From the NCBI GenBank assembly GCA_018970215.1, contig JAGWWX010000005.1:1-45533 (forward strand): a DNA stretch of 45,533 bases, written 5' to 3'. Every line of letters begins with the position of its first letter. The stretch's first letter is position 1. Made by a program: the position numbers and the translations under genes. Of the stretch, positions 37,262 to 45,390 are shown piece by piece. The notes below the pieces were generated by a model, which was given only the letters and a program-made list of their open reading frames with translations, made no database searches and had not been told where the DNA came from. This DNA is from Acidobacteriota bacterium. GTDB taxonomy: Bacteria; Actinomycetota; Acidimicrobiia; Acidimicrobiales; RAAP-2.

Positions 37262-37951
37262 TTAGATGAGCCCTGGGACGGGGGCTCTGGGGCCAAACAG
37301 CGTTCGGCCCAACCGAATTTGGGTACTTCCGTACGCCACCGCTAACTCGTAGTCGTCACTCATTCCCATCGAGAGTTCCCTGACGCCTTCTCTGGCAGCC
37401 AGTTCGGACAGACGGCGAAATGCGACCTCGGCTGCATCGGGGTTCGGCGGCGCCACGGTCATGAGCCCACGCACCTCAAGTCCCCGTCGGCGGCACGATT
37501 CGATGAGTACTGGTGCCTCTGCTGGGCCGACGCCATTGCGACCCGCCGTGGCCGCGTAGTCGACCTGGATATAAACGGGCCGTGGTGTGCTGCCATCCGC
37601 CACGGCCGCGACTTCCTTTTCCCGCGATACCGTCAACACTTCGTCGGCCCACTGCGTCACGGTGTCAATCTTGCGACTCTGAAGGGCTCCGAGAAACTGC
37701 CAACGAATGTCGGAGAGATCTCGCGTGGTCGACGCCTTGTCGACGAGTTCGTTGACGTAATTCTCCCCAAAGACACGGAGCCCCGCGGCGTAGCCCGCGC
37801 GCACGACCTCGACGGACTGCGACTTTGTCACGGCCACAACCGTGACGGAGTCGAGCGAGCGACCGAGACGAACGATGTTCGCCTGTACCGCCGCAAGATT
37901 CGCGGCGACGTCCGGCGTGAGAGGACTACTTGAGGAAGTCGGGAATGTCAT
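37262..37951 (-). CDS. YggS family pyridoxal-phosphate homeostasis protein
   Basis: [49 protein letters not shown] to 37978, likely start MTFPTSS. Confidence 0.9.
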
Positions 37952-39017
37952 CCTCGCCCAGCGGTAAGAAATCGTCACCCGCCGAGGGGAAGATGTCCGC
38001 CGTGGTCGTCACCGACGTGGCGGGACGGCTCGTCGTTGGTGGCCGCGTGGGAGCGGGACGGTCCGAGTCCCACCGGTCGAATCCCGCAGCGATGACCGTC
38101 ACGCGCACCGCTTCACCCATACTGGCGTCGATTGCTGATCCCCAAATGATGTTGGCGTCTTCGTGAGCGACATCGTGAATGATGCTCATCGCTTCGTTGA
38201 CTTCGTGGATACCAATGTTTTCCGAGCCCACGACGTTCACCAGAATGCCGCGCGCGCCACGAATCTCGGCCTCGAGAAGTTGACTCGTAATAGCGTTACG
38301 CGCCGCCGTCAAAGCACGACCCTCGCCCGTTGACTCGCCCACGCCCATGATGGCCGTTCCGGCGTTACTCATAATCGTCTTCACGTCGGCAAAGTCAGTG
38401 TTGATTGTTCCGGGATTCGTGATGAGGTCGGTGATGCCGCGCACACCTTGTAGCAGCACGTCATCGGCCATACGAAAAGCGTCCAACATCGTTGTCTGAT
38501 TCGTCGCGTTCGCAATGAGGCGATCGTTTGGGATCACGATCAGGGTGTCAACTTTTTCGCGAAGAGATTCAATTCCCTTTTCGGCCTGTGCCGCCCGGCG
38601 CTTCCCCTCAAAGGTGAACGGACGCGTCACGACGCCGATGGTGAGTGCACCCTTCGCACGCGCCACGGCCGCGACCACGGGTGCCGCCCCCGTTCCGGTG
38701 CCACCGCCCTCGCCCGCGGTAATAAAAACCATGTCGGCGTCGCCGATGGCTTCTTCAATGTCGGACTTGCAGTCTTCGGCCGCTTGTCGACCGACTTCTG
38801 GATCGGCGCCGGCACCGAGACCACGGGTGAGGTCGCGACCTAACTCCAGTTTCTTCTCGGCCGGACACGGCAGGAGAGCTTGCGCGTCAGTGTTCATCGC
38901 GATGAACTCGACGTTGCGAAGTCCCGCTTCAATCATTCGATTGACAGCGTTCACTCCACCGCCACCGACGCCGATGACTTTGATGTTCGCCATGTAGTTG
39001 CTCTGCTGCAGATTCAT
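37926..39017 (-). CDS. ftsZ: cell division protein FtsZ
   Basis: [20 protein letters not shown], tubulin signature [14 protein letters not shown]-terminal peptide [11 protein letters not shown] to 39074, start at [16 protein letters not shown]. Confidence 0.98.
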
Positions 39018-39101
39018 GAAAACCCCTTCAACCGACCCAGTCTCCCAGACTCCGTGGGGGCTGTCGCCCGACACCGCCTACTGGGTGGAATGTAGCCCTG
39101 A

Positions 39102-39130
39102 ACCCTAGTAGCGGTAGGAAAACTGGTCAA
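39102..39130 (-). promoter_or_regulatory. candidate sigma-70 promoter for ftsZ
   Basis: Minus strand TTGACC-N17-TAGGGT just downstream of the ftsQ stop, upstream of the ftsZ start 39017. Confidence 0.5.
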
Positions 39131-39134
39131 ACGG

Positions 39135-39854
39135 CTACCGAATCTCGACCGTGACGGCCGACGGGACTGACACATCAACGTAGGAGTTGGGCGCGAGGGT
39201 TCGTTCGGCCAAGACGGACGCAATTGCCACAAATTTCGCATGGAGGCGGTCAATTCGTCCGACGTAAAAGGTCACTGGTGTGGTGAAGTGCAGGGTGACC
39301 CGACCTTTCGTATCGACCGACACGGTGCGCACATGTCCGGCAAAGGCCGTAGGGAGACGACGAGCGACCGTCGCCGCGGGACGCGCCCAACGGTCAAACG
39401 GCCATTCGTCGTTGCCTCCGACCGCGGCGAGATGCGGAAGATCGACGCCGACCGTGGCCGGGTCTAACTGGTGGCCGGAGCCATCAACAAGGTGCAGAAC
39501 CCCCACGCCATCGGGAGCGACAGCTATCGGCGAACGCTCGTGGACCGTAAGGGTCACACGATGGGGCCAGTGCCGTGCCACCGTGACACTCGACACCCAC
39601 CGCAACTCCGCAATGGCGCGACTGATCGCCTCACTGTTCAGCGTCAACATTGGCGGGTGGTCATCGAGTCCCGACATGGCAATGACTTGACCCGCCGTTT
39701 CGTGGGTGTTACCGACGACTTCAACGCTTTGTACCCGAAAGTACGAGAGACGACTCACTGCAAGCAGGCCGACATACAGGAGTGACAGCACGATGGTCGC
39801 GGCGAGAAAGCGACGAAACGCGAGGGGCCGTGTGGGGCGACGATTCACCATCAC
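39135..39854 (-). CDS. ftsQ: cell division protein FtsQ/DivIB
   Basis: 239 aa; single TM, POTRA-like RVQSVEVVGNTHETAGQVIAMSGL; between murB and ftsZ. Confidence 0.85.
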   Translation of the reverse strand: MMVNRRPTRPLAFRRFLAATIVLSLLYVGLLAVSRLSYFRVQSVEVVGNTHETAGQVIAMSGLDDHPPMLTLNSEAISRAIAELRWVSSVTVARHWPHRVTLTVHERSPIAVAPDGVGVLHLVDGSGHQLDPATVGVDLPHLAAVGGNDEWPFDRWARPAATVARRLPTAFAGHVRTVSVDTKGRVTLHFTTPVTFYVGRIDRLHAKFVAIASVLAERTLAPNSYVDVSVPSAVTVEIR

Positions 39855-40747
39855 GAAAATCCCACGAGTCGAATTTCGCTATGCAGATCGATACCCCGTT
39901 CGGCCAGCACCGTGTCGTGCACACGGCGCATCACAGACCGGACGTCTTCGGAGCGTCCACCGGCGTCCACCTGGATGAAGTTCGCGTGCTTCTCGCTCAC
40001 GTAAGCCGAACCCACTCGCACACCCTTGCACCCACAGTCATCGATGAGAGCTCCCGCCGTCGCCCCGGGCGGGTTCTGGAAGACACTGCCCGCGTTCGCC
40101 CCACCGGGTTGATGGTCGCGACGCCAACGAACTATCTCGCGCAGAATGTCGCGACCTTCGTCAGCGTCACCTTCTCGCAGCTGCAACGTGGCGTCAAGTA
40201 CTACGTGGCGCGACGTGATCGCACTCGAGCGATATCCGAAGTGCAGATCCCGAGCGGGAACGTCGCGCACCGTCGCCGCGTCGATATCCCACAGCCGTAC
40301 ACTCACGACCGAGGCCGCCATGTCACTGCCGTGACCACCGGCGTTCATTGCAATCGCACCGCCTACGGTGCCCGGTACGCCCACGGCCCACTCGAAGTCG
40401 CGATAGTTGCGGTCCACGAGACGACGAGCAGCCACCGGTAGGTCGACGGCGGCACCCAGGGTGACTTTCGCGTTGTCGTGGAACTCGATTGATCCAAAGC
40501 CGTCACCGAGCACAATGACGAGCCCGTCGAAGCCTTCGTCGGCGACCAACGTATTTGATCCGTTACCCAGAACGTAGATCGGGCTGATGTCACGAAGCCA
40601 CTCACCGAGGACCTGCAGGGCGTCGATGGATTCAATCGTCACGAGTCCGCGGGCTCGACCGCCCACACGGTACGTTGTCTTTTGGCCGAACGGCGCCTCC
40701 GACTCCCCCGCCGAACCCGCGTGGTCGAGTAACTGTTCAATCGACAC
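39851..40747 (-). CDS. murB: UDP-N-acetylenolpyruvoylglucosamine reductase
   Basis: TTYRVGGRARGLV, VLGNGSNTLVADEGFDG, GVPGTVGGAIAMNAGGHG; likely GTG start overlapping the preceding stop. Confidence 0.95.
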   Translation of the reverse strand: MSIEQLLDHAGSAGESEAPFGQKTTYRVGGRARGLVTIESIDALQVLGEWLRDISPIYVLGNGSNTLVADEGFDGLVIVLGDGFGSIEFHDNAKVTLGAAVDLPVAARRLVDRNYRDFEWAVGVPGTVGGAIAMNAGGHGSDMAASVVSVRLWDIDAATVRDVPARDLHFGYRSSAITSRHVVLDATLQLREGDADEGRDILREIVRWRRDHQPGGANAGSVFQNPPGATAGALIDDCGCKGVRVGSAYVSEKHANFIQVDAGGRSEDVRSVMRRVHDTVLAERGIDLHSEIRLVGFS

Positions 40748-43190
40748 GATTTTCTCCCAGTGCGTCGACGGTACGCGAGATATCACCCGCGCCTAGAAAG
40801 ATAATTGTGTCGTAGCGAGAGGCCACCTCACGGACATGACGTTCCACGTCGTCGAGAGTTCGACAGTACGTAACGGGCGTCCCACGGTGCAAGGAAATGG
40901 CCTCAGCAACGAGTTGACCCGAGCTCCCGTCGTCATTCACCTCGCCCGCTCCGTAAATGTCAGTGACGACAACGTCGGTCGCGTCGCCGAACGAACGACC
41001 AAACTCTTCAAGAAGTCGAGTCGTTCGAGAAAAGCGATGGGGTTGAAACACCGCGAGAAGACTGGTCGAGCCTCCCTCACGTGCGGTCCTCAGGGTTGCG
41101 GCAATCTCACCCGGGAGGTGCGCAAAGTCGTCAATTATCTCCGCCGTCCCCAGCCGACCCCGTCGCTCGTACCGACGAGGTGATCCGACAAAGGACGCGA
41201 GGCCCGCGGCGATGGCGTCGGGCGCGGCCCCGAGGAGATGAGCCAGCACGGCAACGGTCGCGGCGTTCGCCACGTTGTGATGTCCCACAACGGGAACGGT
41301 GAGATCGAGCGACAGGAGTGGACCACGAATGCGAAACGACATCTCTCCAGAACCTCGCACGATGTCACTCACGACATACGTGGCGCGATCCGACGTGCCG
41401 ACTGTCAACGCCGCCGTTCCTTCATAACTACGCTCGGGCACATCGTCCATCCAGACAACCACGGGACCGTGAGTGCGCTGGATGACGCCGCGGAACGATT
41501 CGATGAGTGACGCGAGCGTGCCGTAGTGATCGAGATGGTCGGCCTCGATATTGAGAACAGCGAGCCCCTGGGGGGCGACGTGCTCAAAGGTGCCGTAACT
41601 CTCGTCGAGCTCGAGAATCAGTCGATCCCCGTCGTGGCGGCCATTAGGACCGGCTCCTCGGATCTCAGCACCAACGAGCCACGACGGTGACCAGTGTGCC
41701 GCACGGGCGATATGTACCAGCATGGACGAGGCCGACGTCTTTCCGTGCGTCCCGGTAACTGCCACTGTCGAATGATGACGCGCCACCGTGGCGAGCAGAT
41801 GCGAACGATTCATGAGCTCTCCGCTCGCAGCGACGAGGTCGGGATCGAACTCTCGCGGCACGGCGGGCGACCACGTCACGAGTGTCGCGCGAGCGGCATC
41901 GCGAGTATTGCTCCCGACCACGAAGTGCCCGAGGGAGTGCAGAGACGTCAACGTCGCCGAATCGTGTTGATCGCTTCCCGACACGCGAGACCCTAAATCA
42001 GAAAAGTAACGGACGACTCCGCTCATCCCCGTACCGCCCGCCCCCACCACGTGGACGTGAGTAGGAGGCCACTCACGGTCAACGATGTCCGCAATACGCT
42101 GGGCGGCATCGCGACGTCCCGCAGCGAGAGCTCGACGTCCCATGTCGTCACGAAGCGTCGAAGATGACACGAGTGGTTCCAAGACCTCCGTCAGCCGCAC
42201 TGAGGTGCACTCATCGTCTCGCAGAACAATCGCTCCGCCACGTGACGCAAGCGACTGAGCATTCTTTGTCTGGTGATCGCTCGGAGCATGTGGCAGAGGA
42301 ATGAGCACGCTGGGAACTCCCAAGGCCGACAGCTCCGCCACGGTGGCGGCACCGGCACGGCAGACGGCGATGTCGGTGGCGGCCCAGAGTGAGGGCATGT
42401 CGTTCACAAATTCGTACAGGTGATAGAGCGATGTATCGAGATCGCTCGTCACTCGTGTCATTTCCGCAAAGTCTCGGCGACCTGACACGTGCGAAATGAC
42501 AATGTCGCTGCGTTCACGCCAGAGATGCGCGACGTCGGCGATGGCACGGTTGACCCGTCGCGCACCCAGTGAACCCGTCATCACCGTTATGCACAATGAC
42601 TGTGGATCGATGCCACGCGCAATTTTTGCGTGCCGTCGCGACTCGTCATCAATCGTCAGCGAGACGATGGAATCGCGGAGTGGTACCCCTACGACCTCCG
42701 AAGGTCCCGAATGCTGGCCGGGATCAATTCCCCACAGCGTGATGCGCGCCCGTCGGCTCGCGATTCGATGCACCAAACCCGTCGCGGCATCGAGTTCAAC
42801 GAGATAGAGGGTGCGCCGCGACTGACGAAGTGCGAGGGACGCCGCCACCATGGGGAACGCGGCGTAGCCACCCACCGACACCACGGCGCGCGGACGTAAC
42901 ACCAGCGTCGAAATGACCGCACGCCCGAACGCCACAAGCAGACGCATCAGCGAAAGAGCATTTTGTGCGACGGCGGTGGGATGAATCGAACGCCGTAGCC
43001 CGCGACCCGGTAACAAGACGAGTCGTTCGTCTCTATCGCGAAGCAGCACCGACTCTTGACCTCGACGAGAGCCGACAAAAATAATTTCATCGGGTGAGAC
43101 CCCGCGTTCCCGAAGAGCGTCGGCGATAGCCACCATGGGCATGATGTGTCCGCCGGTGCCGCCACCCGTGATCACTATGGGGCGTGGCAC
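40737..43190 (-). CDS. murG-murC: bifunctional MurG-MurC fusion (GlcNAc transferase + UDP-MurNAc:L-Ala ligase)
   Basis: Single open frame; MurG IVITGGGTGGHIMPMVAIADAL and RAGAATVAELSALGVPSVLIPLPHAPSDHQTKNAQ, running without stop into MurC HVVGAGGTGMSGV, VAVTGTHGKTSASSML, IEADHLDHYG. ORF track extends to 43673; GTG 43190 follows the ftsW stop by 2 nt. Confidence 0.92.
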   Translation of the reverse strand: MPRPIVITGGGTGGHIMPMVAIADALRERGVSPDEIIFVGSRRGQESVLLRDRDERLVLLPGRGLRRSIHPTAVAQNALSLMRLLVAFGRAVISTLVLRPRAVVSVGGYAAFPMVAASLALRQSRRTLYLVELDAATGLVHRIASRRARITLWGIDPGQHSGPSEVVGVPLRDSIVSLTIDDESRRHAKIARGIDPQSLCITVMTGSLGARRVNRAIADVAHLWRERSDIVISHVSGRRDFAEMTRVTSDLDTSLYHLYEFVNDMPSLWAATDIAVCRAGAATVAELSALGVPSVLIPLPHAPSDHQTKNAQSLASRGGAIVLRDDECTSVRLTEVLEPLVSSSTLRDDMGRRALAAGRRDAAQRIADIVDREWPPTHVHVVGAGGTGMSGVVRYFSDLGSRVSGSDQHDSATLTSLHSLGHFVVGSNTRDAARATLVTWSPAVPREFDPDLVAASGELMNRSHLLATVARHHSTVAVTGTHGKTSASSMLVHIARAAHWSPSWLVGAEIRGAGPNGRHDGDRLILELDESYGTFEHVAPQGLAVLNIEADHLDHYGTLASLIESFRGVIQRTHGPVVVWMDDVPERSYEGTAALTVGTSDRATYVVSDIVRGSGEMSFRIRGPLLSLDLTVPVVGHHNVANAATVAVLAHLLGAAPDAIAAGLASFVGSPRRYERRGRLGTAEIIDDFAHLPGEIAATLRTAREGGSTSLLAVFQPHRFSRTTRLLEEFGRSFGDATDVVVTDIYGAGEVNDDGSSGQLVAEAISLHRGTPVTYCRTLDDVERHVREVASRYDTIIFLGAGDISRTVDALGENRVD

Positions 43191-43192
43191 GA

Positions 43193-44347
43193 CTACGACC
43201 GCCGCACGATGTTTTTCATCACGGACCGGAACGCGACTCCCCCTGACCGGCGTACGCCTTGATGGGCCGCAATATTCACGAGGAGACCCACGAGACTCAT
43301 GTTCATCACCATTGCCGTGCCGCCGTACGAGACGAATGGGAGTGGGATACCGGTCACGGGGAAGATTCCCACCGCCTGGGCGATGTTGATGAGAGCTTCG
43401 GCACCCAACCAGACGGTGCCGCCCACTGCAATCAGACGTGACGTCATGTCGCGCGTCTGCATCGCCGACTGACCACAGAAGTAAATGAGGTAACAGAAAA
43501 GACCGACGATGACGGTAACGCCAATAAATCCAAACATCTCGCCAATCACGCTGATGATGAAGTCCGTGTGCGCATTCGGCAAGAATCCCCACAGTGATCG
43601 GGCCCGGGCGGGCCCCGTACCAACGAGGCCGCCGGAGCCCATTCCGATGCGCGCTTGATTGACTTGATAGCACGCAACCTGTGGATCGCAGTAGGACGAG
43701 ACGTAGAGGTTCATCAGTCGTGATCGTTGGTAGGGCTGCACGATGAGTGACGCGACACCTCCTACCACCGCAATCAGTAGTGCGCGCTGGAGGTAGTAGC
43801 CCTCAAGACCCCACGTCCACATAATCGCGAACGAAATGAGCCCCACCACAATGGACGTCCCCAAGTCAGGTTGGAGCACGATAAAACCCAAGCCAACGAG
43901 TGAGGCGAGCCACACCACGAGGGGGTGGTACCGCGACGAGTAGCGAGCGAGCGCATACGGCAGGCCCACGCACACGGCAAACTTATAGATCTCCGAGGGT
44001 TGCACAGTAATACTCCCCAGGCGAATCCATCGCGTTGAACCATTGGCCTCGGCCCCAATGAGAGCCACGGCAAAGAGCGCGAAGAGCGCGCCACCAAAGA
44101 TGATCGGCGTAATTATCGCAAGCTGTCGTTGCGTCACGAGGAAAAAGAATGCGAAGCCCATGACGCCAAACATCACGTAGACCGTCTCTCGAAGAAGGAA
44201 ACCGAGCATCGATTGGCCCGTGGAACCGAGCGATGGTCCGATGGTCATCGAGACCACGGAAATGCCAATGGCGAGCAAGAGAGCCGCGGCCACGAGGAGA
44301 TTACGAGCGACCCGCTCGGGATTCATGGTCGTTGACACGTCACTCAC
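43193..44347 (-). CDS. ftsW: FtsW/RodA/SpoVE (SEDS) peptidoglycan polymerase
   Basis: GSTRWIRLGSITVQPSEIYKFAVCVGL, NAHTDFIISVIGEMFGFIGV, PLPFVSYGGTAMVMNM; GTGA overlap with the mraY stop. Confidence 0.95.
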   Translation of the reverse strand: MSDVSTTMNPERVARNLLVAAALLLAIGISVVSMTIGPSLGSTGQSMLGFLLRETVYVMFGVMGFAFFFLVTQRQLAIITPIIFGGALFALFAVALIGAEANGSTRWIRLGSITVQPSEIYKFAVCVGLPYALARYSSRYHPLVVWLASLVGLGFIVLQPDLGTSIVVGLISFAIMWTWGLEGYYLQRALLIAVVGGVASLIVQPYQRSRLMNLYVSSYCDPQVACYQVNQARIGMGSGGLVGTGPARARSLWGFLPNAHTDFIISVIGEMFGFIGVTVIVGLFCYLIYFCGQSAMQTRDMTSRLIAVGGTVWLGAEALINIAQAVGIFPVTGIPLPFVSYGGTAMVMNMSLVGLLVNIAAHQGVRRSGGVAFRSVMKNIVRRS

Positions 44348-45390
44348 TGGATTACCTGCGCAATCTTGACGAAGTCGCCGTAGAACAGCCCTAGGCCGAG
44401 CGCGGCGAGTAATCCCGCCAAAATCCAGAATCGAATCAAGATCGTCGTTTCGGGCCACCCCAACATCTCAAAGTGGTGATGAATGGGGGCAATCTTGAAG
44501 ATGCGACGACCAAAGAGACGAAAGCTCAGCACCTGCAGCATGACCGAAACTGTCTCAACGACAAACAGTCCACCAATAATGATGAGCAACAGGTCGAGAT
44601 TCATCAAGGCGCACAGTGCTGCTAAAGATGCTCCGATCGAGAGTGAACCGGTATCCCCCATGATGATGCGTGCCGGTGCGGCATTCCACCAGAGAAAGCC
44701 GAGGCAACCGCCGACGAGAGCCACTGCCACGAGGGCGAGGTCGAGGGCTGCCGGAAGGTTGTAGAGGTTTTGACTGAAACTATGACGAAACTGCCAGTAC
44801 CCAATGATGGAGAGCACGCCGAAACAAAAGGTGCTCGACCCTGCCGCCAATCCATCCAGGCCGTCCGTCAAGTTCACGGCGTTCGACGTCGCGGTCAACA
44901 TAAACACCGCCAGTAGCGACCAGCCAACGGCACCCAGTTCCCAGCCCGGGAAATCTAAACGCGTGAAGGACAACGTCGTGCTCGTATGCGCCCACGCAAC
45001 GGCACCGTAGGCAAACGCTCCGCCGATTGCTAATTGGCCGATGAACTTTGCGCGCTTGTTCAGTCCACGATTGCGACCACGTCGAATAGAGATGATGTCG
45101 TCAAGAAATCCAAGTAGCGCGGCGGAGATCATTACCGCCACGACCAAGAGACCAGAGCGAGAAAAAGCCACGGATGTCCCGAGGTGTCCGGCGACGTAAC
45201 CCACGGCGGCGGCGGCCACGATGGCGATACCGCCCATTGTGGGGGTCCCATCTTTGGCTAAATGATTCTGAGGTAAGTCATCGCGTACTTTTTGTCCGTA
45301 TCTCCGGGCTCGAAGAAACTTCAAAAGTAGGGGCGTTCCGAAGAGCGACAGAAGAAATGCGACGCCTCCCGCTTCCATCAGACTTAACAC
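44344..45390 (-). CDS. mraY: phospho-N-acetylmuramoyl-pentapeptide-transferase
   Basis: 348 aa; KDGTPTMGGIAIV, SNAVNLTDGLDGLAAG, APIHHHFEMLGWPE; GTG start. Confidence 0.97.
   Translation of the reverse strand: MLSLMEAGGVAFLLSLFGTPLLLKFLRARRYGQKVRDDLPQNHLAKDGTPTMGGIAIVAAAAVGYVAGHLGTSVAFSRSGLLVVAVMISAALLGFLDDIISIRRGRNRGLNKRAKFIGQLAIGGAFAYGAVAWAHTSTTLSFTRLDFPGWELGAVGWSLLAVFMLTATSNAVNLTDGLDGLAAGSSTFCFGVLSIIGYWQFRHSFSQNLYNLPAALDLALVAVALVGGCLGFLWWNAAPARIIMGDTGSLSIGASLAALCALMNLDLLLIIIGGLFVVETVSVMLQVLSFRLFGRRIFKIAPIHHHFEMLGWPETTILIRFWILAGLLAALGLGLFYGDFVKIAQVIQ

Follow-up and report, generated by a model that had tools for sequence, protein, structure and literature searches.

The window (the whole 45,533-nucleotide stretch of DNA analysed here) contains on its minus strand a single reading frame of 817 codons (40737..43190; GTG start at 43190, TGA stop at 40737), in which murG is followed by murC without an intervening stop. 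This frame very probably encodes a genuine bifunctional MurG-MurC protein which, judging by sequence comparison, would have been produced by a 7-nt deletion in overlapping, coupled genes. The uninterrupted frame had been reported in a preliminary description of this DNA and was confirmed by ORF analysis and with Pfam and NCBIfam models; a frame that holds two essential enzymes, both intact and almost complete, is no chance ORF.

The MurG part (residues 1-371; 42078..43190, minus strand) was delimited by Pfam, motif positions and the structural model. It is a full MurG, as described earlier, with a length of ~371 instead of ~375 residues. The GT28 N and C domains (PF03033, PF04101) were located at residues 5-149 and 201-366, above the curated Pfam cut-offs, and the motifs GGGTGGH, VGGYAAFP, RAGAATVAEL and DHQTKNA were found at residues 9, 106, 278 and 305, respectively. 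The MurC part (residues 378-817; 40740..42059, minus strand) was assigned with Pfam, NCBIfam and motifs: the three Mur-ligase domains (N, middle and C) lie at residues 378-471, 478-649 and 672-802, each above its curated cut-off, and the motifs GAGGTGMSG, GTHGKT, NIEADHLDHYG, GHHNVANA, FQPHRFSRT and DIYGAGE are present. The two parts are joined by the linker REWPPT (residues 372-377; 42060..42077, minus strand), defined by alignment with the sister species and by DSSP of the model. The predicted tryptic junction peptide of the fused protein is EWPPTHVHVVGAGGTGMSGVVR.

The best NCBIfam models were murG for residues 3-369 and murC for residues 378-809, both nearly full length. The MurG half scored below the TIGR01133 equivalog cut-off (212.8 vs 250.25 bits); since the free-standing MurG proteins of the genus also fall under it (229-238 bits), the shortfall is lineage-wide, and the MurG call for residues 1-371 rests on domains, motifs, fold and its standing as the sole GT28 protein, not on that cut-off. 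The MurC half was narrowly under the TIGR01082 equivalog cut-off (322.1 vs 335.1 bits), which the MurC of sister species G063 passes (362.1 bits); MurC was by far the top NCBIfam model for this half (Mpl 92 bits, MurD 80 bits). A MurC-Ddl identity (NF011171) was rejected, since the alignment to this 809-position model is confined to its MurC half (positions 6-444).

The full fusion was modelled with AlphaFold2 from an input alignment of 77 rows, giving a mean pLDDT of 94.9, a pTM of 0.87 and a well-ordered junction. In the model, the last MurG helix ends at residue 371, the linker spans residues 372-377 and MurC beta-1 occupies residues 378-382. The MurG half matched the PDB MurG structures 3s2u (TMt 0.88) and 1nlm (0.84), and also 1f0k; the MurC half matched MurC 1p3d (TMt 0.91). 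The modelled orientation of MurG relative to MurC should be treated with caution, as provisional, because the alignment wrongly set the N-terminal 10-15 residues of most MurC-only rows against the MurG N-terminus.

The source genome (one MAG, one strain; 1.54 Mb, 119 contigs, 97.8% complete) was searched with Pfam and by homology for an extra murG or murC copy, and none was found. The fusion is its only protein with a GT28 C-domain (PF04101), and the homology search with the fusion returned a single additional, weak match, while a second MurC-like protein was not among its results. To all appearances, then, this genome has no other source of MurG or MurC. Seven Mur-ligase-fold matches were counted, the others among those read being MurE-, MurD- or MurT-like.

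For the origin of the fusion, 99 genomes of the genus were searched, and the murG-murC junction was readable in 89 other species. None of the 89 carries the fused state, so that a genus-wide trait was ruled out; in most of them the junction is a classic 4-nt overlap (GTGA/ATGA), and in the sole in-frame species (G054) the two genes are separated by a TGA. In a MurG+MurC tree, the window was placed on a long branch as sister to G114, G063 and G015 (SH-aLRT 99). These nearest species have two genes with an 8-nt overlap (GTGAGTAA): murG ends with GAG TAA and murC begins with GTG AGT AA(C) GCC TGG CC (ATG in G015). The junction reads GTGAGTAACGCCTGGCC in G114 and G063, ATGAGTAATGCCTGGCC in G015 and GTGAGTGGCC in the window, where the codons are GAC CGT GAG TGG CCT CCT.

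Relative to the sisters (GTGAG-TAACGCC-TGGCC), the window (GTGAG-TGGCC) lacks seven nucleotides at 42071..42072 (minus strand), as set out in ALTERNATIVES. An independent alignment placed a 7-nt gap exactly at TAACGCC, with exactly matching flanks, and a single-base frameshift error was thereby ruled out. Loss of TAACGCC deletes the murG stop and, given that murC had been offset by one base, merges the two frames; the fusion was thus shown, at the level of aligned sequence, to have arisen by a 7-nt deletion across the overlapping genes. The WPP of the linker corresponds to the N-terminal AWPP of the sisters' separate MurC, and a further 12 nt were lost in the last MurG helix in the window lineage. 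The preliminary description had treated two ORFs in all close relatives as evidence against a fusion; two ORFs are indeed what the relatives carry, but the clean-flanked deletion explains how the fusion came from that state.

The finding of the fusion in one genome, with two ORFs in all relatives within the genus, would also fit an assembly or sequencing error, in which the true genome has two overlapping genes and the consensus dropped seven bases. We consider this improbable: a clean 7-nt loss at a site with no repeat or homopolymer is atypical of short-read errors, the flanks are exact, the adjoining genes are intact, and the same architecture recurs in lineages far apart from one another, ten related species among them. 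Still less probable is that MurC is also, or mainly, made as a separate protein, by internal initiation or by proteolysis of the fusion. Translational coupling was the ancestral state, and an in-frame GTG GTG (Val381-Val382; 42045..42050, minus strand) is present exactly as described earlier, together with the junction sequence, when internal initiation there had been left open. However, this pair, the sole in-frame option, is a poor start candidate: it lies inside MurC beta-1, no Shine-Dalgarno sequence precedes it (TGAGTGGCCTCCTACTCACGTCCAC) and its product would lack His378-His380 of that strand, and separate initiation at GTGGTG is for these reasons unlikely. What is left of the ancestral GTG start of murC (42074..42076, minus strand) is now out of frame with murC and meets a stop within ~20 codons, and no sigma-70-like promoter site was found near the junction.

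MurG and MurC are both essential in walled bacteria. A decaying locus, with one half on its way out and the fusion as a step to pseudogenisation, is the least credible of these explanations and hardly to be expected. The long branch of the window lineage and the slight shortfall of MurC from its NCBIfam cut-off would be in its favour, but the genome encodes no MurG, and apparently no MurC, outside this frame, each half is complete and retains its conserved motifs, and other proteins of the cluster are equally diverged from the sisters (FtsW 42%, SepF 47-48%).

The earlier statement that MurG-MurC is not a standard architecture held for the 89 congeners, and also for ~396-397 genomes drawn from the phylum, among which no other MurG-MurC fusion was found at E <= 1e-84; the remaining full-span in-frame phylum matches each hold a stop. 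Among 397 genomes drawn from the order, two were fused (G442 and G237), and the family of the former (f7) was followed up with 151 genomes. One f7 clade (genus g420) carries MurG and MurC in a single frame in each of its ten sampled species (G881, G852, G962, G981, G929, G906, G918, G972, G951 and G940). MurG-MurC fusions of the order were located at L237-L245 and L260 (f7) and at L253 (G237, family f21). To account for the MurG-MurC state, the MurC tree requires at least five changes, all forced by well-supported branches, which points to at least five independent fusions in the order, that of the window among them. The linker of the window (6-8 residues in this comparison) is the shortest, vs ~20-30 residues in the other fusions. 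Several fusion carriers have small genomes (1.2-2.3 Mb).

Longer and different combinations were also found. A single frame encodes MurG, MurC and MurB in three genomes of genus g193 (G442, G893 and G928) and in one of g165 (G916), with the triple architecture confirmed by Pfam for G442 and G916; these loci (L185:149-3703, L235, L236 and L234:1987-5622, respectively) have uninterrupted frames of 1164-1212 codons. A literature search, with most subscription journals outside its scope, returned no report of MurG-MurC-MurB. MurC and MurB are in one frame with MurG separate in G961, G939, G905 and G851, and MurC-MurB is also in one frame in G867, where the contig ends inside MurC (L251); the MurC-MurB loci (L246, L247, L248, L250 and L251) belong to genomes of the clade that is sister to the MurG-MurC-MurB species. 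A MurB-FtsQ fusion was identified with Pfam in G881 (L237:1273-3369, minus strand; POTRA and FtsQ_DivIB_C domains), and MurB frames of ~700-770 codons at L238, L239, L243, L244 and L245 suggest, from ORF length, the same fusion; the MurB-FtsQ genomes also carry the MurG-MurC fusion. At L252 (g420 genome G894, otherwise MurG-MurC-fused), MurC is in two frames, probably through an assembly break or frameshift.

Several in-frame pairs of the order and phylum (G353, G402, G268, G118 and the G768-type matches) were rejected as fusions because each has an internal stop. In a scan of genome contigs, the many full-span matches were adjoining separate genes, the five in-frame ones checked (L107, L112, L126, L127 and L154) have stops between the genes, and no sequence from the window's species was recovered; viral contigs scanned for the exact junction gave no match.

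The architecture itself is rare but already reported, contrary to the earlier impression that it was unknown. PMC4929429 describes MurG-MurC gene fusions and, in its Fig. 3 legend, gives murG/murC of the actinomycete C. gilvus as a case; PMC6420597 lists MurG/MurC with other known Mur fusions, remarking that the two steps do not follow one another. The C. gilvus case resembles that of the window in enzymes, order and dcw context, and is also from Actinobacteria; it belongs to another lineage, and the available portion of the source gives no sequence-level origin or characterisation (PMC4929429). At least four more independent cases occur in the order; the f7 and f21 fusions share the architecture of the window and differ in their independent origins and longer linkers. 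The MurB/MurC fusion of Verrucomicrobium spinosum, which rescues both murB and murC mutants of E. coli, likewise joins adjacent mur genes and involves MurC (PMC4803751), but links consecutive enzymes (MurB then MurC), without MurG. In Chlamydia MurC-Ddl and Bordetella MurE-MurF, too, fused adjacent genes encode bifunctional Mur enzymes of the cytoplasm (PMC4803751, PMC6420597), but the pairs are different; the MurE and MurF steps are consecutive, whereas those of MurG and MurC are not (PMC6420597). New here are the base-level origin, the at least five independent fusions in the order, the clade-wide retention and MurG-MurC-MurB in four genomes.

The following course of events is proposed. The ancestral murG and murC would have been translationally coupled genes with an 8-nt overlap; the 7-nt deletion in this overlap would have removed the murG stop and put murC in frame, and ribosomes would then read on from MurG into MurC, yielding one 88-kDa protein. 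From homology and the intact motifs, both activities are expected in the single chain: the MurC half would ligate L-Ala to UDP-MurNAc and the MurG half would add GlcNAc to lipid I. Likely consequences would be a fixed 1:1 dosage and the placement of MurC at the membrane/divisome site of MurG. With MurD, MurE, MurF and MraY catalysing the intervening steps, direct channelling from MurC to MurG would not be expected. Tethering of MurC to MurG is plausible; since MurG interacts with other Mur ligases and may act as their scaffold (PMC6420597), it would strengthen an association that already exists. In a dcw cluster this compact, with its short gene overlaps, the change may also have had no selective effect, and neutral fixation is as serious a candidate cause as tethering.

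A broader reading, offered tentatively and with some doubt, is that small-genome lineages of the order repeatedly merge dcw genes, step by step, into polypeptides with several enzymes, under selection for a MurG-centred assembly. MurG-MurC (at least five origins), MurC-MurB, MurG-MurC-MurB (four genomes) and MurB-FtsQ would be its steps, gene overlaps its raw material, and physical assembly of precursor synthesis the selected property. The question whether the cytoplasmic Mur enzymes assemble around MurG is not settled (PMC6420597), and the repeated joining of MurG to the first ligase, retained in one clade by every sampled species, provides independent evolutionary evidence for Mur enzyme proximity. 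Natural MurG-MurC fusions are also ready-made stable constructs for structural work, and the window is an unusually clear record of overlapping, coupled essential genes becoming one gene via a single small deletion.

The fusion lies among other dcw genes on the minus strand. As described earlier, ftsW (43193..44458) is directly upstream, with a 2-nt gap; ftsZ, also placed next to the fusion in that description, is separated from it by murB and ftsQ. The separate murB ORF (39851..40786) overlaps the end of murC, by 11 nt if translated from its likely GTG start at 40747, and ftsQ and ftsZ follow farther downstream in the same cluster (37926..39854). The cluster (37926-45390) is unevenly diverged from the sisters (MraY and FtsZ ~74-79% identity, FtsW ~42%, SepF ~47-48%). 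In sister G063 (L193:4451-6912), the order is murE-mraY-ftsW-murG and the usual murF and murD places are empty; a MurD-like gene of the window's genome is on another contig (C73).
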